64,000 bases of DNA from Tridacna crocea (lineage: Eukaryota > Mollusca > Bivalvia > Cardiida > Cardiidae), in assembly GCA_943736015.1 (NCBI GenBank), contig OX031069.1, positions 43,186,728-43,250,727 on the forward strand, read 5' to 3'. Below the pieces are notes generated by a model. That model had not been told where the DNA came from. It made no database searches and saw only the letters and a program-made list of their open reading frames with translations. The translations under genes and the position numbers were made by a program. Shown here piece by piece: positions 10,868-57,844 of the stretch (position 1 is the stretch's first letter; each line of letters begins with the position of its first letter).

Positions 10868-13800
10868 TCAAGTAAATCGGCCAGTTTGTTGAATATACTC
10901 CTGGACTGATACAAATAATTCTGAATTTTCTCGATCTGTTAGGGATGGTTTGCCAAAAAGAAGATCATCTACATTCAATGGATTAAGGTGCTGAATAGAG
11001 TTAAATAAGTGCAGTCTTTGGATAACAAAAAGATTGCATCTGAAAAAATAGTGTTCGGCGTCTTCAGATTCCACCGAGCACGTGCAAAGCTGACTGTTAC
11101 GAAGATAATTATGAAACAAATCACTATTTAGTCCACTGCATTTATTCCTAATCCGGGCATGCATAACTGATAAGAACCGATTGCCTTCAAGGTAATAGGC
11201 GGGGACAGGGGTTATTGGGAACCTACTTGAAATTAATTTTTTAAAAGTCGAAAACGAATAAACATTCTTCTGGTTTTCATTTAAATTGTTCCAAATATAT
11301 ATTGAAGAAGGGATACAAGATTTTTGAGAAATTGTAGTGCGAGTAGATATGTTTCTTAAATCAGTAATGTTTCTAAGAGCATATTGCGTTGTGTCTGCTA
11401 TAAGTGGCGGAATCAAGTCTGCAATGTATTCGGGAACCATCTGATGGGTTGCTTTATACATAAAAAACATTTTTTGGGTTTCCCGCCTATCTTTCAAAGA
11501 TTGCCATCCACATTCTAAGAACAAGTTTTCTAAGGAAACAGAACGGGTGAGACCAGTTACAATTCTGGCAGCTTCGTTTTGAATTTTTTGTAGAGAATTT
11601 GCACAGGAATCAGAACAACCATCCCAAACAATTGACGCGTATTCTAGTAATGGTGCTACATAAGACAAATAAATTTGGTTTAATGATTTCCTATTCAGTG
11701 TAAATTTCAGCTTTCTCATAATTCCAAGTACTTTAGAAGAAGATTTTAAAATAGTATCAATATGTGCGCTCCATTGACCATTTTGGCTAAAAGTTATCCC
11801 TAAGTGCTTATGATTTTCAACAAAGGTAACATTGGTGTTTTGGAATATTAGCTTAGGTAGTTCGTCAACTTTTTTCAAAGAGAAAAGGATAGCTTCGGTC
11901 TTTTGTGGATTAAACGTTACGAGCCATTGTTTTGCCCATGAAGATATTAGATTGAGGTCATGGTTTATTATACCTTCGATATCACTGATGGATGATGCTG
12001 AATAAAAAAAGGAACTATCATCTGCAAATAGCCTAGTTAAGCTTAGTAAGGAATCAGTAATGTCATTAACGTAAACCAGGAAAAGCAGCGGACCTAGAAC
12101 CGAGCCCTGGGGTACTCCAGCCGTTATCTGTTTTGAAGACGAAGTAGCGGATTGTAAAACAACTTTCTGGCTCCTATTTGAGAGGTAATTTGAAAGCCAT
12201 TTTAAAAGAGTTCCTTCGATACCGTTTTGTCGGAGTTTAAAGAGAAGACCTTTATGCCATACTCGGTCAAAGGCTTTTGAAATGTCACAGAAAACCATGC
12301 ATGAAAATTGTTTGTTATCGAACGATTGGCATATGTGGTGATAGATATCAACAAGCTGGAAAGTTGTGGAGTGCTTTGGCAAGAATCCAGATTGATATTT
12401 ATACAGCAAATTGTTCTCAAGAAAGAAGTTATACATGTGTTTAAAGATGATCCTTTCTAATAATTTTCCGCAACAACTTAATAGAGAAACGGGTCTGTAA
12501 TTAGTAACTGATGATTTATCCCCTTTTTTGTAGATAGGAATTACATTAGCCAGTTTCCATAAGTTAGGGAAAACACCTTCAGATATCGATCGATTAAATA
12601 GTATTGCTAGGGGTTTAGACACTTGGTCTGCTACACTTTTTAACATTCTATGATTGATAGAGTCTGGCCCACTTGCCTTATTTGGGTTAAGGCATCGGAT
12701 GAGGTCTTTTATTTCAGATTCAAAAATAGTGATTTGAGAGAGATTATTATTAGTTATTTTAGTAAAGGGAGGGAGAAAGGCGAATTCTTCATTTACAGTC
12801 GATATAGAGGCGAAAAAATTGTTCAAGCACTCAGCTTTTTCCAGATCGGATATGGATGCTGAAGTCTCACCATTTGGAGACATACTAATTAAAGGTGGAA
12901 TGTTCGATGAGCAATCATTGTTTTTAATGAAGTAGCGGATAAGTCGCCAAAAGCCTTTTTTATCGTTCCTTTGCAGATCACATAGGTTAAGCTCAAGTGA
13001 ATTGAAGAAATTTTGCTTTGCATGTTTCTTCATGTTATTAATTCTGTTTCTGATTGTTTTGTACTTATTTAATAAAGAAAGCTTTCCTGTTTTAAAAGCT
13101 AACTGTTTCAAACGGTCTCTTTTCCTACATAACGTTCGTAGTTCGCCATTAAACCATGGCTTATCGTCGGGGCGAATGGTAACTTTTTGTGAAGGGATAC
13201 AAACATCAATAAATGTAAGAAATTGTTTGGTAAAAAAGTCACATGCTTCGTCTATAGTACCATCGAAAAGAACATCCCAGTCAAAAGATGAAATGTTTAT
13301 ACGTAAAAGATCAAAATTAGCTTTACTGTACTGATAGACTTTTCTCTCATAAATCGGTTTTGGGTCGTATGGGAATGCGAGAGTTATATATGTAGCACTA
13401 TGATCAGTCACCTCAGGTGGATTCGGTATTATCCCAGAATCTAAGTATTGCGTATTAGTAGGAACTAATATAGGGTCTAGTAGAGCGTTCAATCTAGTTG
13501 GTCCAGATATCACATTCTGTAATGAATTAATAATAAGAATATCCTTTAGTTTCCTAAAATTAGGGTTAAGCAAGTCTTCATTTAAATCACCTAGAATAAC
13601 AATGTTATGAGTTATTTCATATGCCTTTTCAATATTTTTGTTAAAGTTTACGAAGAAAAGGGAATCGGAAGTTTTTGGACTGTAAAAGGTGCCAATCAAA
13701 AGTTTACTTCGTTTAAATGAAATGGATAGCCAAATACTTTCTTCACAAAACGTTTCTAACTCAAAAACTCGTTGATGTAATAAACTATTAGATAAGTACA

Positions 13801-14266
13801 CAGAGATGCCTCCACCATGATTTGTTCTATCCTTTCTGTATAGTTTATCAAGTGAATTGGACAAATGCAAAAATTCATCAGGGACAGTCATATCCAAATG
13901 CGTTTCGGTAAAACATAATATATCATAATCTAAATAGCTGTCCCTGATGTATTCCAGCTTCTGTCTTAAACTCCTGATATTGCAATGTAATATAGATAAA
14001 CTTGTATAGTTTAGATTACTAACTGGCCCGGGATTTCGTTCAATGTCCCCATATTTCAGTAACAATAACGACATTAGCAGATAGAAAAATACGTTACTAA
14101 AGCCGTCTATTAGTATACTGATACAACCCAGGAGTATCTTCAACAGTGACAACATAAATGAAAAGTGACCAATACTAATTTTCACTTTAGTAGTTTTCTT
14201 ATACGAAAAGCACCGACAGTTGAAAACACCAATAGAGAATCTCCACAGTATTAAATCATTACCCAT
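10868..14266 (-). CDS. Non-LTR retrotransposon ORF: endonuclease plus reverse transcriptase, with 2A-like motif
   Basis: An intact 1132-codon ORF of the CR1/Jockey-type superfamily, which copies itself by target-primed reverse transcription. In order: a hydrophobic N-terminus with KYGDIERNPGP at residues 71-81, a perfect 2A consensus (D-x-E-x-N-P-G-P); an AP-like endonuclease with LHCNIRSL near 93, TETHLD 120-125, GDLNED 226-231 and TDHSAT 287-292; and a reverse transcriptase with RPVSLL near 591, DISKAFD 661-667, GVPQGS 717-722 and the FADD active site 747-750. A C-terminal C-x-C-x(8)-H-x(4)-C motif (CTCSVESEDAEHYFFRC) is a likely nucleic-acid-binding knuckle. All expected catalytic motifs are present without a stop, so it is probably young. 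No convincing ORF1 is seen upstream. Clade assignment is from motif style only. Confidence 0.92.
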   Translation of the reverse strand: MGNDLILWRFSIGVFNCRCFSYKKTTKVKISIGHFSFMLSLLKILLGCISILIDGFSNVFFYLLMSLLLLKYGDIERNPGPVSNLNYTSLSILHCNIRSLRQKLEYIRDSYLDYDILCFTETHLDMTVPDEFLHLSNSLDKLYRKDRTNHGGGISVYLSNSLLHQRVFELETFCEESIWLSISFKRSKLLIGTFYSPKTSDSLFFVNFNKNIEKAYEITHNIVILGDLNEDLLNPNFRKLKDILIINSLQNVISGPTRLNALLDPILVPTNTQYLDSGIIPNPPEVTDHSATYITLAFPYDPKPIYERKVYQYSKANFDLLRINISSFDWDVLFDGTIDEACDFFTKQFLTFIDVCIPSQKVTIRPDDKPWFNGELRTLCRKRDRLKQLAFKTGKLSLLNKYKTIRNRINNMKKHAKQNFFNSLELNLCDLQRNDKKGFWRLIRYFIKNNDCSSNIPPLISMSPNGETSASISDLEKAECLNNFFASISTVNEEFAFLPPFTKITNNNLSQITIFESEIKDLIRCLNPNKASGPDSINHRMLKSVADQVSKPLAILFNRSISEGVFPNLWKLANVIPIYKKGDKSSVTNYRPVSLLSCCGKLLERIIFKHMYNFFLENNLLYKYQSGFLPKHSTTFQLVDIYHHICQSFDNKQFSCMVFCDISKAFDRVWHKGLLFKLRQNGIEGTLLKWLSNYLSNRSQKVVLQSATSSSKQITAGVPQGSVLGPLLFLVYVNDITDSLLSLTRLFADDSSFFYSASSISDIEGIINHDLNLISSWAKQWLVTFNPQKTEAILFSLKKVDELPKLIFQNTNVTFVENHKHLGITFSQNGQWSAHIDTILKSSSKVLGIMRKLKFTLNRKSLNQIYLSYVAPLLEYASIVWDGCSDSCANSLQKIQNEAARIVTGLTRSVSLENLFLECGWQSLKDRRETQKMFFMYKATHQMVPEYIADLIPPLIADTTQYALRNITDLRNISTRTTISQKSCIPSSIYIWNNLNENQKNVYSFSTFKKLISSRFPITPVPAYYLEGNRFLSVMHARIRNKCSGLNSDLFHNYLRNSQLCTCSVESEDAEHYFFRCNLFVIQRLHLFNSIQHLNPLNVDDLLFGKPSLTDRENSELFVSVQEYIQQTGRFT
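14024..14047 (-). other. 2A-like ribosome-skipping motif in the retrotransposon ORF
   Basis: Codons for D-I-E-R-N-P-G-P (residues 74-81 of the ORF). In proven 2A sequences the ribosome fails to form the bond between the final G and P, which releases the upstream peptide and resumes translation at P. Here this would release an 80-residue hydrophobic leader and start the endonuclease/RT protein at proline 81, ten residues before the endonuclease fold. 2A-like motifs are known from other non-LTR retrotransposons. Activity is inferred from the consensus only. Confidence 0.75.
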
Positions 14267-14830
14267 TAGACAACAACATAAACAAAAATAAATAACTTAT
14301 TGAGATTCCCATTGGTTCAATGACTTGATATCGGATTACATACTTGTCACTCTGAGTATAGATAGTCTGGGGAAGAAGAAGAAGACGAAGATGAAGAAGA
14401 AGGATATTTGAGGTATAACAATTATGGGAATATGTACATGTATAACAGTTTACAAAATATTCAGTCAGAATAGCTTGTTGAGGAACACTGTAGTCATAAT
14501 AGGAAAATGGATCAAGTAAATGAAGATTGAAGAAAATGATATTTACAAATGCATATCTCATAACTAATGATGATGATGAAGAAGGAATCATCAGTTTGGG
14601 CACATTTCTTAGTCGAGGTGATAGGGTGAGTTATACAGAGATGAAATAAAGTCGATTAGTCTAAATTTGGTTTATGGTGAATAGTAAAGAGTAAATACGG
14701 TCAAGAGGCAGGCAATAGTATTAAGCCGAAGTTAAGTTTTGACATGTACTTAAAGACATACCATTAACATCGATGACGGTTATATCCTGCTAGAAACATT
14801 ATTTCTTTAGATTAAACCAATAACAAGAAT

Positions 14831-23734: not shown

Positions 23735-23810
23735 TTCCAAATTTTACAAGTAACACAACTTCTGATTGGCTGAGCCAAACTGCTTAGCCTATCAGACGTT
23801 TTATTTCTTT
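23735..23810. repeat. Family K MITE fragment
   Basis: Contains ACAAGTAACACAACTTCTGA and an imperfect complement ending GACGTTTTATT. The GTAAC at 23750-23754 is the unoccupied equivalent of the TRIM insertion site at 31991. Confidence 0.6.
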
Positions 23811-30858: not shown

Positions 30859-31995
30859 ATAGTATGATTTAAACTTAAATGTATACCAGCTTTGATATTT
30901 TGGCCTTTACTGGGCCTTTAATCATGAGTCAAACCTTTTTGATAGCGCCAATCTCAGACAATGCAGTGTCTTGCCCGAGGACACTCCAATACCAGCTTCC
31001 ATGACGAAAGCGAGTTTCAAATCAGCATTTTCTTGTCACAAACCTGGCATCTGTACCAATGAGCCACAGAACACCACGAACCTTAAAAAAGATAGGCATT
31101 CGGATTCATTCGGCCTTGGTGCTTATTTACGGCAAGTCCAAAATGAGCAGAATAAAACAGTCTATTAAGGCATCAGTTACAGTAATGCAGACGATAATAT
31201 ACGCCGTGTTTGTCGAAATGATGAAAACACCCTTCGCCTTGTAATAGGAGATTGCAACGCTAGTAAGCTTTTGCGGACAGTGTAGATCAAGATCAGACTG
31301 CACAAAGCGTGCAATCTGATCTTGTCCTACGCTGTCCGACATTAGGTAATATCCGATACGTATGTATTTCAGCAAAACAAAACAAGAATTCATTATGCGA
31401 TATGGAATTGTGAAAATCCGTTCTTCCGTTTATAGTGTTAAAAGGAGAACTATTTCACCAGACGAGGAAACTCTAGATTCATCCGCACTGGAACTATTTT
31501 GCAGATGACATTTTAAACGTGGCTCCAAAAATCGAATTGAACTTTTGGAAGGTAGAAAGCACTGTGTGAAATGATAAACGAGATGGTTACCCGCATTTTC
31601 TCCTTCTTCGATGTTGTTTTCTGGGGTTTTCACCCCCCTACAGGGTCGAAAGAATTCGGGGTCGTTTAGGAAGATTTAATGTACGAAGCATTACCCATGT
31701 CATCACGAAATAGACATTTTATGGCGGATCATTCTCGTGACAATTATCTCAACTGGCAAAAGGTCTTCGACATTCGAGAATGTTTCTCTATATCGATATC
31801 GAGATAAAAAACAAAAAGTTTACTACGTTTTTATTCTTTACTCTTTACCTCATAGCAAAATTTTAGCCTTGTCCAAATTGAAAGCATTTGCAGACGACAT
31901 TTTAAATGTTACTCAAACCAGGGCCCATATTCACCAACCATTCTTGAGAATACTCATAGTCCTGTTTTCCAAGGTTTTCTAAATTTGTAAGTAAC

Positions 31996-32523
31996 TGTTA
32001 CGGGAGACCACTCCTTCCTGCATGGCATTCTCCCGAGTTAAATACAATACCTGGCTGCTGCGTCAGAGAGATATCTCTTTGGCTCAGTGGTTAAGGTATT
32101 GGCCTTGCGTCCGGGAGTTCGGGGTTCGAATCCCGCTCGGTACCTTATTTCTGCCATGCATTTATTCATTTGTTTCTTTGTTACGGACTACGTTCGTAAG
32201 ATGGGGGCTCGTCCGGGATTGGCCATTGAGCCATTAATCCCATTTGTTGTCCAAAATTGGACTTCCTGCCTAATAAGGCTTTGAGTCATCAATAAATGAT
32301 GACTTTAAGAGGGGGTGTGTTACGGGAGACCACTCCTTCCTGCATGGCATTCTCCCGATTTAAATACAATACCTGGCTACTGCGTCAGAGAGATATCTCT
32401 TTGGCTCAGTGGTTAAGGCATTGGCCTTGCGTCCGGGAGTTCGGGGTTCGAATCCCGCTCGGTACCTTATTTCTGCCATGCATTTATTCATTTGTTTCTT
32501 TGTTACGGACTTCGTTCGTAAGA
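31996..32523 (+). mobile_element. Miniature LTR retrotransposon (TRIM) with tRNA-derived LTRs
   Basis: A complete 528 bp element. Two 206 bp direct repeats (31996-32201 and 32318-32523), both starting TGTTACGGGAG and ending CGTTCGTAAGA, differ at only four positions. They enclose 116 bases. A primer-binding site (32202-32219, complementary to a tRNA-Pro 3' end) directly follows the left LTR, and a polypurine tract (AAGAGGGGGTG, 32307-32317) directly precedes the right one. GTAAC flanks both sides (31991-31995 and 32524-32528) as a 5 bp target duplication. There is no coding capacity. The internal part resembles the 3' end of a Gypsy-type element, so it is probably mobilised in trans. Near-identical LTRs imply recent insertion. 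Confidence 0.9.
32073..32147 (+). other. tRNA-derived segment inside the left LTR of the TRIM
   Basis: Reads like the body of a tRNA: TGGCTCAGTGG matches the Pol III A box, and GGTTCGAATCC, about 45 bases on, matches the B box, followed by CCGCTCGGTACC. The right LTR carries the same segment at about 32395-32469 with one difference (GGTATT against GGCATT). The acceptor stem does not close convincingly, so I do not call a functional tRNA gene. Confidence 0.75.
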
Positions 32524-32811
32524 GTAACACAACTTCTGATTAGCTAACCCAATCGGTTTAGCCAATCAGAAGTTGTGTTACCTTTCACTTCATATATGTC
32601 TAAGATTTTGTCTTCTAGAAAAGACTTGAGCCCAGTCAAATATTTTTTCCAGAAGAAAAAAATGTAGACCAGTCCAAGTTGAAAACATTTTCAGACGACA
32701 ATTAAAATGTAGGTCAAATGATGGAGTTTGTCTTTGATTCTTTAATAGAGCAGAAAACACTGTGGTTACCAGTAACTTCTCCTTTTGTCTCCGCAGTGTT
32801 TTCAAAAGATT

Positions 32812-33890: not shown

Positions 33891-34105
33891 GCCTGTATTC
33901 ACCAACCTTTTCTAAGAACATTCTCAGTCTCATTCGTTAGAATTCTGTCAATGTGAAAGTGACAGAACTTCTGATTGGCTAAACCATTCTGATTGGCTAA
34001 ACCGAATGGTTTAGCCAATCAGAAGTTCTGTTACTTTCACTAACAGGGAAATTTGAAGTATAAGATCAAGAACGTTCTTAAGAATGGTTGGTGAATACAG
34101 ACCCT
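33891..34105. repeat. Palindromic MITE, family K, intact copy
   Basis: Outer inverted ends: GTATTCACCAACC at the left and GGTTGGTGAATAC at the right. Inside is a strong dyad, CAGAACTTCTGATTGGCTAA against TTAGCCAATCAGAAGTTCTG, around a duplicated GGCTAAACC centre. It has no coding capacity. Related copies lie at 23735-23810, 31919-32588 and 44148-44400. Confidence 0.7.
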
Positions 34106-40747: not shown

Positions 40748-40968
40748 TCTGTTTTACGGGAGACAACTCCTTCATGCATCGCTTCATCCCGGTTTAAATG
40801 CGATACCTAACAACGGCATTAGGGAGAATTCTCTTTAGCTCAGCGGTTTTGGTGATGGCCTTTCGTCCGAGCGTTCTAGGTTCAAATCCTGTTCGGTCCC
40901 TATATTTCTTCTATGTATTTGTTCATCTGTTTCTTTGTTACGGACTTTGTTCGGAAGATCTCCATCAA
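40748..40968 (+). mobile_element. Solo LTR related to the TRIM, with tRNA-like body
   Basis: Same layout as the TRIM LTR: TTTTACGGGAGACAACTCC at the start, then CTTTAGCTCAGCGG (A box), GGTTCAAATCC (B box), CTGTTCGGTCCC, and an end reading TTACGGACTTTGTTCGGAAGA. Only one LTR is present and no clear target duplication was found. It lies just 3' of the receptor signal-peptide exon, in intron 1. Confidence 0.7.
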
Positions 40969-44147: not shown

Positions 44148-44400
44148 TTTCACCAACCACTCTTAATGCCATTCTAGTCTGAATGTGAAGATTTCTCGTA
44201 ATTTCAAAGTAATGCAATATCTGATTGGCTTAACCAAATGGCTTAGCCGCCAATCAGATATTTAGCTACATTCAAAATTAGAAATCAGACCGAGTTCAGT
44301 GCCCCTTCATGTTTGATTAAGTAACTTTACAAACATTCTTAGGAACATGAAAGTTCTTAACAAATGCATAGCTGAAATACAAACCGCCTCTAGCGGGATT
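44148..44400. repeat. Family K MITE, diverged copy
   Basis: Contains TTCACCAACCACTCTTAATG at the left, a central dyad (TATCTGATTGGCTTAACC against GCCGCCAATCAGATA), and a right end with ATTCTTAGGAAC. It is joined at its right side to a tRNA-bearing LTR fragment in minus orientation. Confidence 0.55.
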
Positions 44401-44520
44401 CGAACCCATGACCGGCAAATTTCCTCGTTTTTCGAGGTTTAAAAGACCAATATCATAACCACTGAGCTAAAGAGACATCTCCCTAGCGCAGTTGTTAGGT
44501 ATTTTATTTCATCCTTTCCG
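44380..44520 (-). mobile_element. TRIM-type LTR fragment with well-formed tRNA-like cloverleaf
   Basis: On the minus strand it reads CTAACAACTGCGCTAGGGAG, GTCTCTTTAGCTCAGTGG, a CCTCG-AAAAA-CGAGG hairpin, GGGTTCGAATCCCGC and TAGAGGC. The 5' GTCTCTT pairs with the 3' TAGAGGC at six of seven positions, A and B boxes are present, and the extra hairpin sits near the anticodon/variable region. The flank GGCGGTTTGTATTTCAGC matches the 57612-57844 LTR. It could be read as a tRNA pseudogene, but its flanks match the LTR family. Confidence 0.65.
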
Positions 44521-44805
44521 GTAGGATATCGAAAATAACAGTCAAAATAGTTTTCGACATTACACGGGTACGACCAGAGAATACCGATTTTCATGTTCGT
44601 GTTGCCTAGGTAAATTGCGAGTGCCTCACGACCAGATGGAAATATGCCGTCATTTACCTTACATTTCTCTCGCTTGGCATGATATTGTAATGCTTTGCTA
44701 TGCTGGAGGGGTACGCCACGGCGAAGAACGGAAAAGAACTTTACTTTATTTTAATAAAGCTCCTCCCAGAATGGGTTAAAAGCATGAAATAAATTCAGTG
44801 TTTGT

Positions 44806-44922
44806 TTTTTTTCGGTGAAAGATCGAAATGTTTTTCATCTCGTGAACACCTTCGGTAATATTTTCACAATAGTGTTCACTCGATGAAATACATTTCGATC
44901 TTTCACCGAAAAATACAAAAAA
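44806..44922. repeat. Fold-back repeat O
   Basis: TTTTCGGTGAAAGATCGAAA / TTTCGATCTTTCACCGAAAA arms, an inner dyad TCGTGAACACC / TGTTCACTCGA, and an AT-rich loop. Confidence 0.75.
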
Positions 44923-45308
44923 TATCCTTTATGTATTTAATTCAGGATAAAACTATGCATGAAGGAGTGGTTACCCGTAACAATATCTATAATATGTGAC
45001 ACATAACTTATTTCTAATCTCCATCTTATTGCTCTATAAATCCGACTTTTTACAACAATGTCCCGACTTTCAGAGACCTTGAGGAAGACAAATTTTGAAA
45101 ACATTATTGGAAAATGAGAAAATACTGGTAACCAGCATTTGCACATTTTCCAACATTTTTTTTTCTAAACCTTTTTAAATAAATTTCAAATTGAGAATCA
45201 CGTTTATTTTGTTTTCTGCAAAAACTTCAACAAGGGCAATTCCTAATATATGTCCTTTTATGAAGAGTTAAGCACTAAAAGCCGTTTGGTTTTAATTTTT
45301 GTTTACAG

Positions 45309-45765
45309 ATCGTTGATAGCTCAAACAGTTACAGAGAAAAATGCCGAAGTACTCTCGGGACCTTCGAACCAGTGGAGTTTGAACCCCACGCATGTTCCTG
45401 GTGCTACCTGTATCTATTTCAATCTCATAATAAACCTCTAACCGTAGAATTCTCAGATAGTTATCTAACCGTGAGAGATAACAAAACGGGATATCCAATC
45501 GGGACAAAATTCAAACCGGATATGGACAACAAAACCGTGATAAGCATTATTTGTTCTACACTGACGTCAGACGAGTGTGACATGTGGACGAAGTGCTGTA
45601 TGGACGCCAGGAACTGTTGTGCGCAACAGTTGCAGACTCCAGTATTATCGAATGGGACACACTGTCCTAGCACATGGGACGGGTATAGCTGCTGGACTGA
45701 AGGTGTGCCATCGAAGGAAAGTTACGGTGCATGTCCGAGTTTCCTGAAGAATTCAGTCCCAAAGA
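45309..45765 (+). CDS. Family B GPCR, exon 2a: Cys-rich hormone-binding ectodomain, copy A
   Basis: Encodes most of the extracellular hormone-receptor (HRM) region. The reading frame runs IVDSSNSYREKC at the start, through HACSWCYLYLFQ, TVRDNKTGYPIGTKF, DECDMWTKCC and ARNCCAQQL, to the family hallmark TWDGYSCW followed by CPSFLK. The TWDG-x-x-CW motif is the conserved core of class B1 receptors such as the calcitonin, PTH and PDF receptors. An NGT sequon lies just before it. There are twelve cysteines, more than the six of a minimal HRM, so the domain has an extended N-terminal half. The exon is 457 nt, starts in phase 0 after an acceptor ending at 45308, and ends in phase 1 at a gtaag donor. 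It is the same length as exon 2b and shares about two-thirds of its residues (about 104 of 152 by hand). Confidence 0.9.
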
Positions 45766-46308
45766 GTAAGTTTTTATTATGTATACGTTCTGTTTCTGAA
45801 AGTACATGGGTTAGCAAGCTGTTGCAAAAATCTTAACTTGTAAGACATATCTCGACAATTAGCTACCTTTTCTCGGTGTTGAAGGAGTTTTGAATTTTGA
45901 ACCAAGAAATATTGGCTTCAGTTGTCGCTGAAGAATATAGTTATATAAATTCTGATGGGAGAGACAATTTAGAGGGCTACTCTACAGCTGGTAAACAAAC
46001 ATTTCAAAGAACTAAATAAGTAAGCTAGTGTTGAATTAATGAATTATGACAAACAAGATTTTGATAAATATTAACGATGAACTCTGTGCACTGAAGCAGA
46101 TTTGTTTTTTTTTTTTTTAAACCGATTCTACAATTTGATATTTTACAGTACCTGACAATGTTGCGAGTGTTTTTTTTTTTTTAGAGATAGAATATAAAAT
46201 CGGTATTTTTCACCAGTCGTAACCATGAAATATCGAAAATTATTTCACTGTTATTTCTCGATATACGACTGGAAAGCATGAAATACATCACCGTCTTTCC
46301 ACCCAGTT

Positions 46309-47265: not shown

Positions 47266-47866
47266 CCTGTCTGTTGGTCTGTTCTCTCTGTGCATGTTTC
47301 TTGGTTATTCAAACTGTCTGTTTCCCCTTTTTTACTATTATGTATATTTATTCTACGGGATTAGGCTATTTGTTTACATATCTATATACTGCTTATTTCG
47401 CAGTGTATGTACCGTAGCGTTCTTTTTCATTTTTGCACTCCTCAATTTATTCTAATATGTATCACACTGGCTAGCATCTTGCCTTCATAATCCTGGGCTC
47501 TTTCTGTCTATTTCTCACTAGGTTTAGTTTAGGACTGCGGTCGATGTTTTTTAGTAATCTCTTCTTTGTGGCATGTTTGTTATGTTCTCCTAACAGGACT
47601 TCTTCTGTATTGAGCCTATCTGATCTTTATTTCTGTCCATGTCTTTCCTAGTACAAGTGGTAGGAAAGACACAGAGGCAAAAAGTTTGATCTCCAGTCTT
47701 AGTGATCGAAATAACCCATGCAAATATATACATGCATATAGGCGTTGGATTGTGGCCTCTGCCTGTCAGTTTTTATGTCACGCATTTCTCAATCAAAACT
47801 ATACACAATAAATCTTTTCATATTCTATTTATCCTTTTTTTCAAAAGCATGATATTTGTCTTACAG

Positions 47867-48323
47867 GTGTCCAGTAGCCCAAACACTTACAGCAGAACGT
47901 GTCGAAGTAAGATCGGGAAATTCGATCCGGTGGAGTTTGACATTCACGCCTGTTCATGGTGCTACTTCTTCCTGTTTCAAGCTGCAAATAAGCCTCTTAC
48001 CACAACATTTATCGATAATTATCTAACCGTGAGAGATAACAGGACCGGATATCCAGTTGGAACAAAATTCAAACCGGATTTCGATAACAGAATTGTGACT
48101 GATATTATTTGTTCTACGTTGACCTCGGACGAGTGTGAAATGTGGGTGACATGCTGTGCGGACGCCAGAATGTGTTGTGCGCATCAGCTAAGATCTCCAG
48201 TTTTGTCGAATGAGACGGTCTGTGCCAGTACATGGGATGGTTATGGCTGCTGGACGGATGGTGTTCCGTCAAAGAAGAGTTACATTACATGTCCAAGCTT
48301 TCTAAAGTATTCAATGCCGACAC
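47867..48323 (+). CDS. Family B GPCR, exon 2b: Cys-rich hormone-binding ectodomain, copy B
   Basis: Second copy of the ectodomain exon, exactly as long as copy A (457 nt) and in the same phases (0 in, 1 out). It opens VSSSPNTYSRTC, keeps FDPVEFDIHACSWC, LTVRDNRTGYPVGTKF, TSDECEMWVTCC, ARMCCAHQL and the hallmark TWDGYGCW, and ends CPSFLKYSMPT before a gtaagt donor. Cysteine spacing matches copy A throughout, and the NGT sequon of copy A is NET here. There is no stop codon or frameshift, so both copies appear to be kept functional. Differences cluster at the N-terminus and around residues predicted to be surface-exposed, which would allow different ligands or affinities (inference). Confidence 0.9.
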
Positions 48324-48557
48324 GTAAGTATCATCTTTCTTTTGTACTGTCTGAGAATTAAGTGCAGCGCAAAGATTTTATTTCATAATGATATTAAAAC
48401 CAGAAACAAGATTTAGACCAATTCTTCTAAATGATAACATTATGAAATCTGATTACATAAAGATTTTAAATCTCGATGAATTAAAGATTAAGAGACTGAA
48501 TGATGTTTTGTGGTAAACCTGTTACTTTTTTCCCAGCATAATGTAAATTGAAATCAG

Positions 48558-49389: not shown

Positions 49390-50029
49390 TGTTACGAGCC
49401 AAACGGAACGAGAAAGAAAAACGAGCAACAAGGAATTTACAATATATGCATAATTATATTAATAGATAAAGACGCTGGAGTACAATCAGAGATAAGTTTG
49501 AATGAAATTTAAGAAATTAACAATATATATTAATAAATAAAGACACCGGAGTACAAGAGGTAAGTATGAATGAAATGTTGACAATTTTTGATCTAAGAGC
49601 AAGAAATAGAATAATTCCCTCAAATTTAGGAATTAGTTTTATACTATAAAAAGTATGAAATTTTTCATTCCTAAAACCTAAATTAACAATAGTTTAACTT
49701 GCAAATAGATGTAAGCAACCTGTTTTAAAATAAAGTAATTCCAACTTACAGATCTATATTCCAGATTAAATCCATCATTTTTCACTAATTCTATATCCCC
49801 CAAGCCACAAGATTAAAATCAACATATAAGTCATTCATTTTTATATCAGCCTGGAAAATTCTTCATTAGTCTTTTCTAGAAAGACGACAACATGGATAGG
49901 TAAACATGTTGTTCACTAACAACCTGTTTCTAAAAATAAGCACGATGAAAAAAAAAAAGAAACGATAAATGTTCTTTTTGTTTCTTGAATATTCTGAAAA
50001 CATGTCACTGTACATCTTATTTAATAACA
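49390..50029 (-). repeat. 3' LTR of a decayed Ty3/Gypsy-type retrotransposon
   Basis: A 640 bp LTR in minus orientation: + strand TGTTACGAGCC to AATAACA. The adjacent CTTCCCCTCCT (50030-50040) is the complement of a polypurine tract, which fixes the orientation. Matching LTR sequence occurs at 53829-54351, 56144-56545 and 56588-57159. It lies in the receptor intron between exons 3b and 4. Confidence 0.75.
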
Positions 50030-53000
50030 CTTCCCCTCCTAAAGGAAAAAATGTTTGAAGAGTTAAAACTTTCCTTTATTAGAATATAAAACATATGGTT
50101 ACACTTAAGTGTTCGTGAAAATACATTATACATAAACACAAATGTTAACAATTTATGGTTACACTTAAGTGTTCGTGAAAATACATTATACATAAACACA
50201 AATGTTAACAATTTATGGTTACACTTAAGTGTTCGTGAAAATACATTATACATAAACACAAATGTTAACAATTTATAAGTTCTACTCTAGAAAAAGTATC
50301 GGGGATATTATTATGGCTACCTTTTATCTGTCTAACGTTCATGCTATATTCATTATTCATTATTCCACCGGAGTAAACGTTGGTCCTTGCTTTTTTTCAT
50401 TCACTATATACAATGATGGGTGCAGGAGAAGACGACAAATATTTTTCGAAATGCTGAAGAGACATAAACATTCTTTTTCTTTCGTTGAGTATAGTGTTTC
50501 TTGTGTTTGTTAAACTTTAGAAAAAGATTAAGTAACTGGATGATCCACACCATTATAATCTTCTTGAAGTAAAACACCACCTACACCAGCAAGCTTAAAT
50601 TCTTTTCCAAAATTAGGAACTGAAAGAACTTGTTTTTTACTTTCTGGTATGGCTTTTATTTTATCTAAAGTTTTTTGACTTTCATCATTCCATATATTTT
50701 TGGGGGTTGCTAAGAAGACATGTCAGTGGCTCAGCAATGACAGAAAAAATATCACCGAATTTCCTATGGTAACAAGCCATACCAAGATATCCCATGAGTT
50801 GTCTTTTGCATGCAGGTACAGGAAAATCAGAAATAGCTTTTATCTGTCCGTATCCAACAACATGACCCAAAAATGTTAAACTAGCATGGCAAAATTCACT
50901 TTTCAAAAGAGTAATTGTTAATTCACCTGTACTCAGTCTTTCAAAATTCCCTGATAGTCTTTAGATGTTTATCTCAAGTCTTTAGATGTTCATCTCAATC
51001 ATCGCTGTGAATGATGACATCATAGATTCAGGCTCTACAGTCGTCCAATCCACATAAATTCATGTTGGTAGACGTTGAAATATTGCCGATGAGTTTTTTT
51101 TTCGTCCCAAACGGAATACCTTTGTATTGATATTAAAGTACAATAGAAATAACAAATGCAGATATCTCTTTAGCTCTTTCAGTGAGGGGAATTTGCCAAA
51201 ACCCTTTCAGATGATCAAGTTTGGTAACGTATTTTGCCTGACCAATATTGTCAATGCGGCCGTCTACTCTTTGCACAGGAAATGCATCAGTCTTGGTCAC
51301 AGTAATAATTTTTCAATAGGCAGTGCACATACGAAACGTTCCAGCTGGCTTTGATACCATAATACAGGGAGAACTCCATTCACTTTAACTAGGTTCAATA
51401 AAGTCATTGTCCAATAGATACTTGATTGTTTCTCTTAGATTCTCCTTTTTTTTTTATTCATTCGATATGGATGTTGTTTGACTGGTTTTGAATTTTTAAA
51501 GTCCATATCATGGTACATTGTATTTGTCCGTGTTGGAGTATCAGGGAATAGGTGCTCATATTCAGAAATTAACCTTTTTAATTCATCTTTTTCTTTATTA
51601 CCTAGGTGTGACAGTTTTTTATCTAAATCTTTTAAAATGTCATAATTCTGTAGTTTTTGAACATTGTAGGCTTAGACATATCAAAGTGTTTCATGAGGTA
51701 TACCTAAAGTACTTGACAAAGGTGTTTTATGAGCTAGGCTTAGTATTTCTGATCTGTAAGATTTAGGAACGATTATTCTGATGATTGACAGCCCACCCAT
51801 CATCAGTAGAGACTTCAGAAGGGCACCACTTTTTTTATTAATATTCCATTCTTTATTTAAAAACAGACAGATTCCTATGAAAGATCAGTTTCACTGACAG
51901 CTTTTTGAAGTTAAGGTACAAGTTCTGGATCGTTGTACTGGTTTTGACCTTGACTTTGTATCATGACCTTCATTTACTAAAGGTAAAGACATGTAATCAA
52001 ATTCTGATGAATTATATATTAGAATTTGTCTGACTTTCCAACGAGTTTTGTGAAATAGATACGCAAATTTCAATTTTTCAATAAATGACCAAACAACGAA
52101 ACAGGTAAGTCAATATATTAGTCTGTGTTTCAGTCAAAATATCTTTCTTTACCATGATAGCTCTAGTAACTGCACTGGAAGGATAAAGGGCGGGAATTTC
52201 TTTATCAATTGGATCGGGTGATTGATCCATACAAGCTGCGCCAGTTACAAGTGGATTAACAATTACTTTATCTCCGGCCAAATCATTGCCTAATAACAAA
52301 TAAACACATTCAAAGTGTTATTTTTTCGGACACCAACAGTCACTGGACCATTAATTAAGTGTGACGACTAATCAATGTTATGAAGCGGAACAACAACAAA
52401 TCCATACCCTACACCTTGAATAAGGACACTTGTCCGAAAAGAAGTCTTCTCAGAAAAAAATGAGAATTGAGATCGAGAAACTCCAGTATCACGTAAAATT
52501 TAAATAGGGGTAGACTGGACAAAATCACTTTCTAATGACAGAAGACCATTTGATAAGAATGGTTCATAGATTTCATAAAGGTATCGGTCTCAGGTACTTT
52601 TGCCTGGATAAATGCTTGGTCTTTAAAACATGATTGAGGTGTAGACGTCAATGAAGTAAAGCCTGTAGACATGCAACTTTCTTCTTTTTACCGTTTTCTT
52701 TTTAAAACAGGACATTTAGAAAAAATATGACCTGGTTCTTCACAAGCGGGTCAAGATAAGGGATTTCTACCCTTGTATTCATAAGGGTTTGGAACTATTC
52801 TGACTGGAATTGTCATTATGTTGATTAAAATTTGGTTTAGGACCAGTAGATAAATAAGAAAGTTTTTGATCTATTGCTGAGAGACCTTATGAGTCAAGGC
52901 AAAGTTGTCTGCTATGCCAGCAGGTTCCTCTAAAGTTTCAACCTCTTTCTCGTCTAAGAAGTTTTTATATCTGAATTAATGCACCTTTTAAATTCTTCAA

Positions 53001-53828
53001 CTAACAATAATTGTCTAAATTTTACATGATCTAAATCTATTTGGACACCACCTATTAAATAGTTGTTCTTTAGTCTAGCAAATTCAACATGGGTTTGACC
53101 GTTTTCCTTTCTGCAATTCCTAAATTGTTGTCTATATGCTTCAGGTACCTGTTCATAAGGCTTTAGAATCATTTCCTTAACATTATCGTAAATAAAAGGT
53201 TGTTCATTACTTAAGTGAGAAAAAAGTATCGCGAACCTTTCCAGTAACAACGCTTTGCAAGAATAAGGTCCACTGTTCTTTTGAAATTCGTTTCAAATTT
53301 TCTGTAAAACTTTCAAAATGTGAAAAGTATTTATTAACTTCCTGTTCTTTGAATGCCGGAACATGTCTAAAGTGTTTTGTCACGTCAAAGTCATTAATCA
53401 CATGCAAATATTTTTTTTCTTTATTTTCTATTTCTAATTCTGTCATTCCCAACGGAAACTGTCTTTCCCTCTTTCTTTTTTCTACATATAATTCAGCATG
53501 CATTTTTCTAACTGTAATTTAAACTCATTTTCTTTCATCCTTTCTTTGTGCTCCTTTTTTTTCAATTTCTCTTCGTCTTTTATAATTTGCAGTTTTAATT
53601 TTTCTCAATCAATATTACTTATTATCAGACTTTCTTACCAAATTTAATTGTCCTGCAAAGGTTTGGCAATATGTTTTTCAAGATTAAAAGACATGATTGC
53701 TTTTTTGCTGGTTCACTAGAATAAAAATCAAATTTTATTCTTTCATTATGATTTGACTCCCCAATTTCTGTCAAAAGCCAAGCGTAAAGAGAAAGAACAA
53801 CCAGCCACAAGCCTTTAGCAGTTAGCAA
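50030..53828 (-). pseudogene. Internal region of a decayed Ty3/Gypsy retrotransposon (gag, partial pol)
   Basis: In minus orientation the order is gag then pol. Gag-like frames lie at 52954-53503 in two overlapping registers (a frameshift near 53207-53250), including KEQEVNKYFSHFESF and EAYRQQFRNCRKE. A zinc knuckle near 52730-52765 reads PACEEPGHIFSKC, with its first Cys codon now TGA. The post-protease linker GDKVIVNPLVTGAA lies at 52078-52299. RT start-like KPVKQHPYRMN is near 51450-51490, and SLTFLGHVVGYGQIKAI with LMGYLGMACYHRKFGDIF is at 50685-50906. No integrase is seen. Several stops and frameshifts mean it is inactive. Confidence 0.8.
50095..50276. repeat. Three exact tandem copies of a 60 bp unit
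   Basis: Lines starting at 50101, 50161 and 50221 are the same 60 bases apart from the edges (ACACTTAAGTGTTCGTGAAA ...). Each unit contains the palindrome ACACTTAAGTGT. The array lies inside the decayed Gypsy element next to its 3' LTR. Perfect identity implies recent expansion or an assembly effect. Confidence 0.85.
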
Positions 53829-54351
53829 TATTTATAAATGATTAAAGACACAGGAGTGCAATAAAAGTTAATTTTGAATGGCACTTTTACACATTTTAAT
53901 CTTGAAATGAAAAATGGAATATATCCGTCAAAATTAAGAAATAGGTTTAGACTACAAAAAAGTATGAAATTTCTGGTTCCTAAAAACTAAATTAACAGTA
54001 GTTTTTACCTGCATAATAGATGTGAGCAACCTGCTTAAAGATAAAGTAATTCCAACTTAAAGACTTATATTCCAGATTAAAACCAAAATTTTCACTACTT
54101 CTATATCCTCCAAGGTATAATGTCTAAGTTCAATTCCAAAATCAACAGATAAGTCACTCCTCTTTATATCGGCTTGGAAAATTCTAGATTAGTCATTTCT
54201 AGAAAGATCGCAACATGGGTTAGTAAAAAGCTTTTTTTTTCACTAACAAGCTGTTTCTAAAAACAATCACAAGAGGAAACAAATAGAGGTTTTTTTTTTT
54301 GTTTCTGGTATATTCTGAAAACAGGTCACTGTATATTCTATGTACATAACA
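53829..54351 (-). repeat. 5' LTR of the decayed Gypsy element (truncated)
   Basis: Shares TAAAGTAATTCCAACTTA, TATATCGGCTTGGAAAATTC and CATTTCTAGAAAGA with the LTR at 49390-50029. It lacks the part next to the primer-binding site (the equivalent of 49390-49525), so the junction with gag is deleted. The outer end is GTACATAACA at 54351. Confidence 0.7.
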
Positions 54352-56545: not shown

Positions 56546-56587
56546 AATTTCAATTCTTAAAAGTTTCATTTGTTTAAGGTGGGGAAG

Positions 56588-57159
56588 TGTTGTGTAAATA
56601 GAATATGCAGTGTTTTAATATTTTAGAATATTCTAGAAACATAAGAAAATTTATTGGTTATTCCCTTGTGGTTATATATGAAAACATGTTGTTAGTAAAT
56701 AAGCTCTTTACCAATCCAAATTGTCATCTTTCTTGAAAAGACTTATCTAGAAATTTCCAAGCCGATATAAATACGAGTGACTTACTTAGTGATTTTGGAC
56801 TTGAACCTAGACCTGTGGCTTGGAGGCTACAGATTTAGCGAAAAGTATTGGATTTAAACTGGAATATCGATCTGTCAGTTGGAATTACTATATTCTTAAA
56901 CAGGTGGCTCAATCTATTTGCAAGTTAAATTATTGTTAATTTAGGTTTTAGAAACCAGAAATTCCATATTTTTGTAGTCTAAACACAATTTTTAATTTTG
57001 AGGCACTTATTCTATTCTTTGTTCTAAGATTTAAACTTGTCAAATTTCATTCAAACTTAACCTTTATTGTATTCTTTTGTCTTTATTCATTAAAAAAATA
57101 TTGTTAATTGTTAAAAGTTTAATGCTGGTTTTCTTTCTCGTTGCGTTTGTCTCGATGCA
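56588..57159 (+). repeat. Gypsy-type LTR, plus orientation, with PPT on one side and PBS on the other
   Basis: Begins TGTTGTGTAAATAG right after a purine tract (AAGGTGGGGAAG) and ends CTCGATGCA. The TGGGGGCTCGTCCGG primer-binding site (tRNA-Pro type) follows at 57165-57179. Its body is the reverse complement of the other Gypsy LTRs in this window (for example GAAATTTCCAAGCCGATATA). Confidence 0.7.
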
Positions 57160-57164
57160 GAAAT

Positions 57165-57611
57165 TGGGGGCTCGTCCGGAAGTTATCATGTATCATTTAG
57201 GGTATACTTTGAAATTATTTTAGATTTGTTACAGTGTTAAAGTTTATTAGATGATAATAGAATAAAATAAAAATATATATATTTTTTATTCTACTAAAAC
57301 TAACAAAAAACAATCACGTCTTTTGATATTTATGAAAACTTAATTGCTGAGCCTTCTCAGGAGTTGGTTATTTTCGCAAAAAAAAAAATCAGATTTATTA
57401 GATCTAGATTCTCAGTATAAAGTGACTGCCATTAAAGGTAATTTGTTAAAGCATGGAAATAAGATTGCTAAGTTTTTTGTTGATAAAGAAATACTTGACT
57501 TACGTAGAATTGGCCATTGGGCCATTAATGCCATTGGTTGTCTAAAAACGGACCATCTGCATAATAAGGCTTTGAGTCATCAATAAATGATGATTTTAAG
57601 AAGGTCTGATG
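57165..57611 (+). pseudogene. Gypsy-type leader, gag start and 3' remnant between two unlike LTRs
   Basis: Primer-binding site (57165-57179), then a leader, then a gag-like start around 57344-57505 with a frameshift at a run of A (57378-57388): AEPSQELVIF, then LDSQYKVTAIKGNLLKHGNK and FFVDKEILDL. This is typical of the N-terminus of Gypsy gag. From about 57511 the sequence jumps to the 3' end of a Gypsy-type element (GHWAINAIGCLK), shared with the TRIM interior. Nearly all of gag-pol is therefore deleted. Confidence 0.6.
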
Positions 57612-57844
57612 TGTTACGGGAGAACACTCCTTCATGCACGACTTCGTCCCGATTTAAATACAGCACCTAACTACTGCGTTAGAGAGATAACTCTTTAGCT
57701 CAGTGATATAATTGTATTGGTCTTTTTAACTTCAAAAAACGAGGATCTTTGCTCGTCACTGTTTCGAACCATGCCAGATGCGGTTTGTATCTCAGCCATG
57801 CATTCGTTCATTTGTTTCTCTATTACACACTTTATTCGTAAAGA
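57612..57844 (+). mobile_element. 3' LTR of the TRIM family (long tRNA-like variant)
   Basis: Starts TGTTACGGGAGAACACTCC, continues CTCTTTAGCTCAGTGATA and TTTCGAACCATGCC, and ends TATTCGTAAAGA. The preceding 100 bases (57511-57611) match the TRIM internal region (TTGGCCATTGGGCCATTAAT ... AATAAATGATGATTTTAAG), so this is a right-hand LTR. The tRNA-like part is close to the 44380 copy rather than to the 31996 copy. Confidence 0.7.

Follow-up and report, generated by a model that had tools for sequence, protein, structure and literature searches.

TRIMs whose LTRs resemble a tRNA have been described under the name Helenus from fish, wasps, bivalves, a brachiopod, nemerteans and a ctenophore (Kojima, 2024; PMC10886601). 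The reported elements range from 311 to 1263 bp in length, with primer-binding sites (PBS) for tRNA-Pro among the bivalve families, and the animal Helenus have been characterized by 4-bp target duplications, a polypurine tract (PPT) and, in some species, thousands of copies together with tandem arrays (PMC10886601). Gypsy partners have been inferred from similar primer sites, while the way in which a TRIM stays dependent on its partner was stated to be unknown; experimental validation of Pol III transcription is lacking for Helenus according to the same study, in whose main text the word TTTT is absent (PMC10886601). Helenus is also mentioned in the accessible part of a 2026 meeting report (PMC12859917), and no further reports were found in a limited literature search. 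The plant TRIM Cassandra carries 5S RNA in its LTRs, for which Pol III terminators are reported in the portion of the source available (PMC7215508). Among Gypsy retrotransposons, Gmr1 elements have been reported, in excerpts of two studies, to have the integrase placed before the reverse transcriptase (PMC6238403, PMC8220671).

An element comparable to Helenus is present in a stretch of 64,000 nucleotides from the bivalve Tridacna crocea, hereafter the window. An earlier note, made from the sequence of the window, had described it as a miniature LTR retrotransposon and had suggested that it could be an undescribed class of retroelement, no established animal equivalent being known; this part of the suggestion falls to Helenus, which has been described in animals (Kojima, 2024; PMC10886601). 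The element belongs to this known kind, having been assigned by the published description and not by consensus sequences. Taken as a whole, it is read here as a Helenus-type TRIM, that is, a non-coding LTR retrotransposon with a tRNA-derived promoter in its LTRs that would be copied through a Gmr1-like Gypsy partner, with a probability of roughly 0.86. Its features in the window are as follows.

31991..31995, plus strand: left copy of the target-site duplication, GTAAC, read from the sequence
31996..32201, plus strand: left LTR, 206 bp, TGTTACGG...CGTAAGA, 98% identical to the right LTR
32080..32090, plus strand: A box of the left LTR, TGGCTCAGTGG, by box pattern
32123..32133, plus strand: B box of the left LTR, GGTTCGAATCC, 43 bp after the A box, start to start
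32202..32317, plus strand: internal part, 116 bp, non-coding by its sequence
32202..32219, plus strand: PBS, TGGGGGCTCGTCCGGGAT, abutting the left LTR, complementary to the 3' end of tRNA-Pro including CCA
32202..32222, plus strand: first 21 internal bases, PBS plus ATTGG, identical in the Gypsy partner
32307..32317, plus strand: PPT, AAGAGGGGGTG, abutting the right LTR
32318..32523, plus strand: right LTR, 206 bp, by repeat comparison
32402..32412, plus strand: A box of the right LTR, by box pattern
32445..32455, plus strand: B box of the right LTR, by box pattern
32524..32528, plus strand: right copy of the target-site duplication, GTAAC, overlapping the start of a palindromic repeat (32524-32581)

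The element thus measures 528 bp (31996..32523) and has what defines a TRIM, namely two LTRs, an internal part running from PBS to PPT, a length below 1000 bp and no coding capacity. The main structural claims of the earlier note were all recovered: the 206-bp LTRs with four differences, the PBS and PPT abutting them, the lack of coding capacity and the A and B boxes in both LTRs, which occur at their fixed spacing twice in the window against none in 100 shuffles. The reverse complement of the PBS, leaving aside the CCA, equals the 3' end of two tRNA-Pro(AGG) genes in the same genome. The GTAAC duplication stands on both sides as claimed, although its length of 5 bp is atypical of a family in which 4 bp prevail. 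A tRNA SINE would have a single tRNA head, a LINE-type tail and neither LTRs, PBS nor PPT, which does not describe this element, because of its LTR-PBS-PPT-LTR structure and integrase-type duplications. The insertion sits exactly at the edge of one copy (32524-32581) of a MITE-like palindromic repeat starting GTAACACAACTTCTGATT, other copies of which are found at 23749-23808 and 33958-34041. Elsewhere, the window holds a 1142-codon open frame (10868-14296, minus strand) with the endonuclease and reverse transcriptase domains of a non-LTR retrotransposon, as well as two similar exon-like frames (45279-45836 and 47690-48361) whose matches to a hormone-receptor domain, 23.7 and 24.1 bits, are below the cut-off of 26.2.

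A search of the genome (1.05 Gb in 31 contigs) has shown that the window copy is one of a large family. Among the 40 relatives that were scored, out of 2,612 candidates, the full-length ones are 96-98% identical to it, and, with up to 3 mismatches allowed, 3,459 LTR/PBS and 3,201 PPT/LTR junctions were detected, whereas reversed-pattern controls gave 0. These are LTR-type copies rather than the plain tRNA SINEs which the earlier note had considered as a contrary outcome. A pattern covering the A-box region matched 10,160 places (control 3), and set against the junction counts this leaves about 3,500 LTRs without a recognisable junction. The exact LTR pattern had 0 matches in viral contigs. Target duplications were compared in the window copy and in 39 near relatives that were retrieved. 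An exact 4-bp duplication is present in 32 of these 40 copies, and one with a single mismatch in four in five of them; one copy shows 3 bp, one complex locus lacks a duplication, and 5 bp are found in the window copy only. Eight of the 32 exact cases (L009, L010, L016, L019, L023, L031, L039 and L044) have identical flanks and count as one insertion; they occupy the same site within another repeat, which carried the Helenus insertion along. For a second set, 34 loci on contig C1 were drawn from the first 100 listed LTR/PBS places, a choice that guarantees a PBS in each; 28 of them have the simple LTR-internal-LTR build and an exact 4-bp duplication, one is simple with one mismatch, and five are truncated or tandem. 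The 5-bp duplications which the earlier note had expected in genomic copies are accordingly not a family trait; the family shows the 4-bp duplication of animal Helenus, with the window copy alone at 5 bp. Six tandem arrays (L068-L073), chosen from the C1 LTR/PBS list, are each flanked as a whole by exact 4 bp, five having three LTRs and one having four. Some tandem arrays contain units from different subfamilies. In 61 two-LTR copies, counted without seven copies of the carried-along insertion, the paired LTRs differ at a mean of 3.9 positions as opposed to 10.4 between loci, and therefore do not represent two independent SINE landings. Together with the junction counts, this similarity bears out the view that the element is copied by LTR machinery.

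With regard to the tRNA likeness of the LTR, the scan proposed by the earlier note failed to recognise a tRNA fold. ARAGORN detected zero tRNAs in the LTR of the window element or in 39 loci with copies, and the Rfam tRNA model had no match to the young LTR of the window copy; a functional tRNA gene in the LTR was ruled out on these grounds. As far as its sequence can tell, the "tRNA" of this LTR is a promoter remnant. Its descent from a tRNA is read from the boxes, from their spacing and from the older relative at 44359-44982, and near-perfect A and B boxes occur also in two older relatives within the window. By this reading its LTRs contain the tRNA-derived sequence, complete with A and B boxes, that marks Helenus. 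The older relatives are located as follows.

44359..44982, minus strand: older, interrupted relative whose LTR is still tRNA-like, called by ARAGORN as tRNA-Lys at 44384-44477
40754..40959, plus strand: older relative, LTR alone, about 79% identical to the LTR of the window element by sequence comparison

The Rfam tRNA model aligns over its full length with the relative at 44359-44982, scoring 19.2 bits (E 0.087) and thereby falling short of the gathering score of 29; this relative also accounts for the only tRNA call made by ARAGORN in the whole window (44384-44477). Helenus-type LTRs are thus seen once more to confuse tRNA finders.

The transcription signals of the element are distinctive in what they omit. 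There is no TTTT, the Pol III stop signal, in the 528 bp. When the 322-bp unit is shuffled with its dinucleotides preserved, 1.5% of the resulting sequences lack the word, as do 1.3% of the 528-bp stretches of the window (plus strand). The density of TTTT is 0.26/kb in 29 sampled copies compared with 17/kb in their flanks, and the word occurs in 0 of 69 LTRs and one of 36 internal parts, counts that are not independent across copies, which have a common ancestor. The LTR consequently has no internal terminator of the kind reported for Cassandra. AATAAA or ATTAAA is absent from the LTR and occurs once in the internal part. Among young copies, the A and B boxes show no significant excess of conservation over other 11-mers of the LTR, of which 20% and 47%, respectively, vary as little or less. 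The missing TTTT would fit Pol III read-through across the whole element into flanking DNA, Pol III being the polymerase to which these signals point. For the window copy, the probable stop is listed below.

32606..32609, plus strand: first TTTT downstream of the element, a likely Pol III stop

The partner was reached through a pattern for the 3' internal part without a preceding PBS, which matches five places in the genome only. At three of them (L089, L090 and L091) Helenus LTRs enclose a PBS, a leader, a gag-like frame and the Helenus 3' internal part; the other two, L088 and L092, were rejected as further long forms, being older relatives without the gag stretch. Decayed Gypsy copies in the window contain pieces similar to the gag-like stretch of the long forms, and a search with this stretch revealed a young Gypsy family; among the 40 members that were scored, out of 1,038 candidates, several are identical to the L091 stretch. 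Of 30 Gypsy loci fetched, 28 have no Helenus match of at least 50 bp, and 13 of these 28, displayed in forward orientation, show a Gypsy LTR end followed by the same PBS as in Helenus. The first 21 internal bases are identical in the two families, so that Helenus has a tRNA-3'-end PBS in common with an autonomous Gypsy family; beyond these bases, no meaningful similarity was found between the Helenus and Gypsy LTRs or 3' bodies. In one Gypsy copy (L124, in pieces) the domains follow the order H2C2 and rve (pieces 1 and 2), then RVT_1 and RNase H (piece 3). The partner therefore has the integrase upstream of the reverse transcriptase in one open frame, as in Gmr1-type Gypsy elements, with which it is placed by gene order only. 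Its LTR measures 554 bp and is without A or B boxes, while a count over the LTR plus 5 bases beyond its end gave 12 TTTT and one AATAAA/ATTAAA. The LTR ends of both families are alike (TGTTAYG...TCGTAASA), and 4-bp duplications were detected in seven of nine partner copies tested, the other two consisting of one copy without a duplication and one with the right LTR not at the expected place. One Gypsy family, Gmr1-like in its gene order, is strongly indicated as the source of the enzymes for Helenus. The window itself contains a hybrid piece in which the two families meet.

~56577-57164, plus strand: Gypsy LTR preceding the hybrid piece
57165..57841, plus strand: hybrid piece with a tRNA-Pro PBS after the Gypsy LTR, a gag-like stretch, a Helenus-like 3' internal part and a decayed LTR

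A decayed Gypsy element related to the partner family also lies in the window (49395-54351, minus strand), with LTR-like ends and gag-like and pol-like frames; Pfam gave no significant match for four frames of this element.

Recombinant copies tie the two families together. The combination of Helenus LTR, PBS and Gypsy leader has eight exact matches in the genome (control 0), comprising L089-L091, one locus each on contigs C15 and C17, and L134, L135 and L136. In the C15 chimera, the sequence runs through gag and integrase and switches to the Helenus 3' internal part shortly ahead of where the reverse transcriptase domain would begin, continuing with an LTR and one more Helenus unit; the C17 chimera runs from a Gypsy LTR through a Helenus internal part, a Helenus LTR and a Gypsy body to a Gypsy LTR. 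In four of the eight (L089, L090 and the C15 and C17 loci) the entire chimera lies between the two copies of a 4-bp duplication (ACGT, ACTG, CAAC and GAAG). The outer left flank of L091 lies in a tandem; no LTR was found where the right ends of L134 and L136 were expected, and L135 continues on its right into a Gypsy LTR with a second PBS behind it. Short words common to both families are found at the junctions, namely the 8-nt ATTGGCCA in L089-L091 and the 5-nt AAAAT at the C15 locus. When compared with 29 Gypsy loci, the long-form stretch of L091 has 0 mismatches to several, that of L090 has 25 to the nearest, and that of L089 has 4 to the nearest and 17 to L091, which indicates that junctions of this kind formed independently at least twice. 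In addition, the 5-nt spacer seen in the Gypsy element is missing where the Helenus LTR meets the PBS, the outcome expected from transfer of second-strand strong-stop DNA. Since the gag stretch of the long forms continues in the Gypsy family, recombination accounts for these forms better, and the idea that the short form is a deletion product of the long form was dropped in favour of this reading.

Additional evidence concerns the primer. A search of the genome for the 3' end of tRNA-Pro gave six places, three of which were fetched: two are tRNA-Pro(AGG) genes and the third (L147) was not called as a tRNA. At this third place, positions 37-72 of tRNA-Pro (36 of 36 identical) and CCA lie directly before an antisense LTR end (L147/L149), in the following arrangement.

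L149:224-728 (G000:C3:97023-97527): primer fossil in which two antisense Helenus LTRs enclose an inverted LTR piece together with 36 nt of tRNA-Pro and CCA

The PBS explains only 18 of these bases, tRNA genes in this genome are without CCA at that place, and the left flank of the fossil is Gypsy pol sequence. The simplest reading would be a reverse-transcription product that retained part of its tRNA-Pro primer.

Taken together, these features suggest a cycle in five steps. Pol III would start just upstream of the left A box, read through the PBS, the internal part and the right LTR, and end at the first flanking TTTT, in flanking DNA because the element has no TTTT of its own. tRNA-Pro would then prime cDNA at the PBS, as the fossil shows, and the first cDNA would jump to the right LTR, a step that could work even with RNA running beyond the LTR. 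The Gypsy family would supply the enzymes, its RNA and cDNA recombining with those of Helenus, as is strongly indicated. Finally, the product is integrated with the 4-bp duplications seen in the flanks, the same as those of the partner; the 5-bp duplication of the window copy speaks against this reading. A broader proposal, for which the odds appear to be about even, holds that terminator-free TRIM RNA made by Pol III shares particles with the RNA that Pol II makes from one Gmr1-type Gypsy family, that LTRs and bodies are exchanged by template switching at the common PBS, and that freedom from TTTT sets what spreads, so that Gypsy bodies with tRNA-promoter LTRs would arise repeatedly and stay rare. 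The long forms, whose 0.7-0.8 kb Gypsy leader/gag stretch contains 8-10 TTTT, number three only by exact pattern, compared with thousands of copies of the 528-bp form with the same LTRs.

Three other explanations have been weighed against this reading. The A and B boxes are all that would suggest two tRNA SINEs lying side by side by chance, an arrangement already refuted by the junction counts, the common duplications and the pairing of LTRs, and it retains practically no probability. It is also rather improbable that the element is an ordinary Pol II TRIM, its boxes left over from a former SINE insertion into the LTR and its transcription starting in U3. The absence of extra conservation of the boxes in young copies and the loss of the tRNA fold are consistent with such an origin, as is TTTAAATAC, a TATA-like sequence in U3 that precedes the A box by about 40 bp and could act as a promoter. 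Against this stand an A box that is intact in all 34 LTR rows, these having been selected by a pattern including part of the box, the near-perfect boxes of the two older relatives, and the absence of TTTT throughout the element; furthermore, the LTR has no polyadenylation signal, and the one in the internal part would cut a Pol II transcript short.

For the chimeras, an origin by ectopic DNA recombination or gene conversion between high-copy repeats, instead of template switching during reverse transcription, is judged unlikely as a general account. Both families are abundant and have 21 identical bases at the PBS, and tandem copies sometimes mix units of different subfamilies; some chimeras could have been produced in this manner. 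Nonetheless, in half of the eight cases a 4-bp duplication encloses the entire chimera, the spacer-free LTR/PBS join is what plus-strand transfer predicts, and the other junctions need only a match of 5-8 nt, all of which favours template switching.

When compared with other small LTR elements, the TRIMs of bivalves (PMC6934838) are likewise small, non-coding LTR elements of molluscs, whereas the accessible part of that study gives no clear PBS for them and does not mention RNA polymerase III. The analogy with Cassandra drawn by the earlier note was apt: according to the part of the source available (PMC7215508), both are TRIMs with a Pol III promoter inside the LTRs and both form LTR-internal-LTR-internal-LTR arrays, while Cassandra differs in having 5S rRNA instead of tRNA sequence and terminators in its LTRs, where the present element has no TTTT. 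The closest likeness is to Helenus (PMC10886601), which corresponds in TRIM size, tRNA-like LTRs with A and B boxes, a PBS for a tRNA 3' end, a PPT, the 4-bp duplications of the family, high copy number and tandem arrays. Apart from the 5-bp duplication of the window copy, what sets the present case apart from the published Helenus families is also what is new here: recombinant copies, in addition to similarity of the PBS, identify the partner, a CCA-bearing fossil reveals the primer, and the absence of TTTT has been measured, which offers a testable rule for the content of an LTR element transcribed by Pol III.
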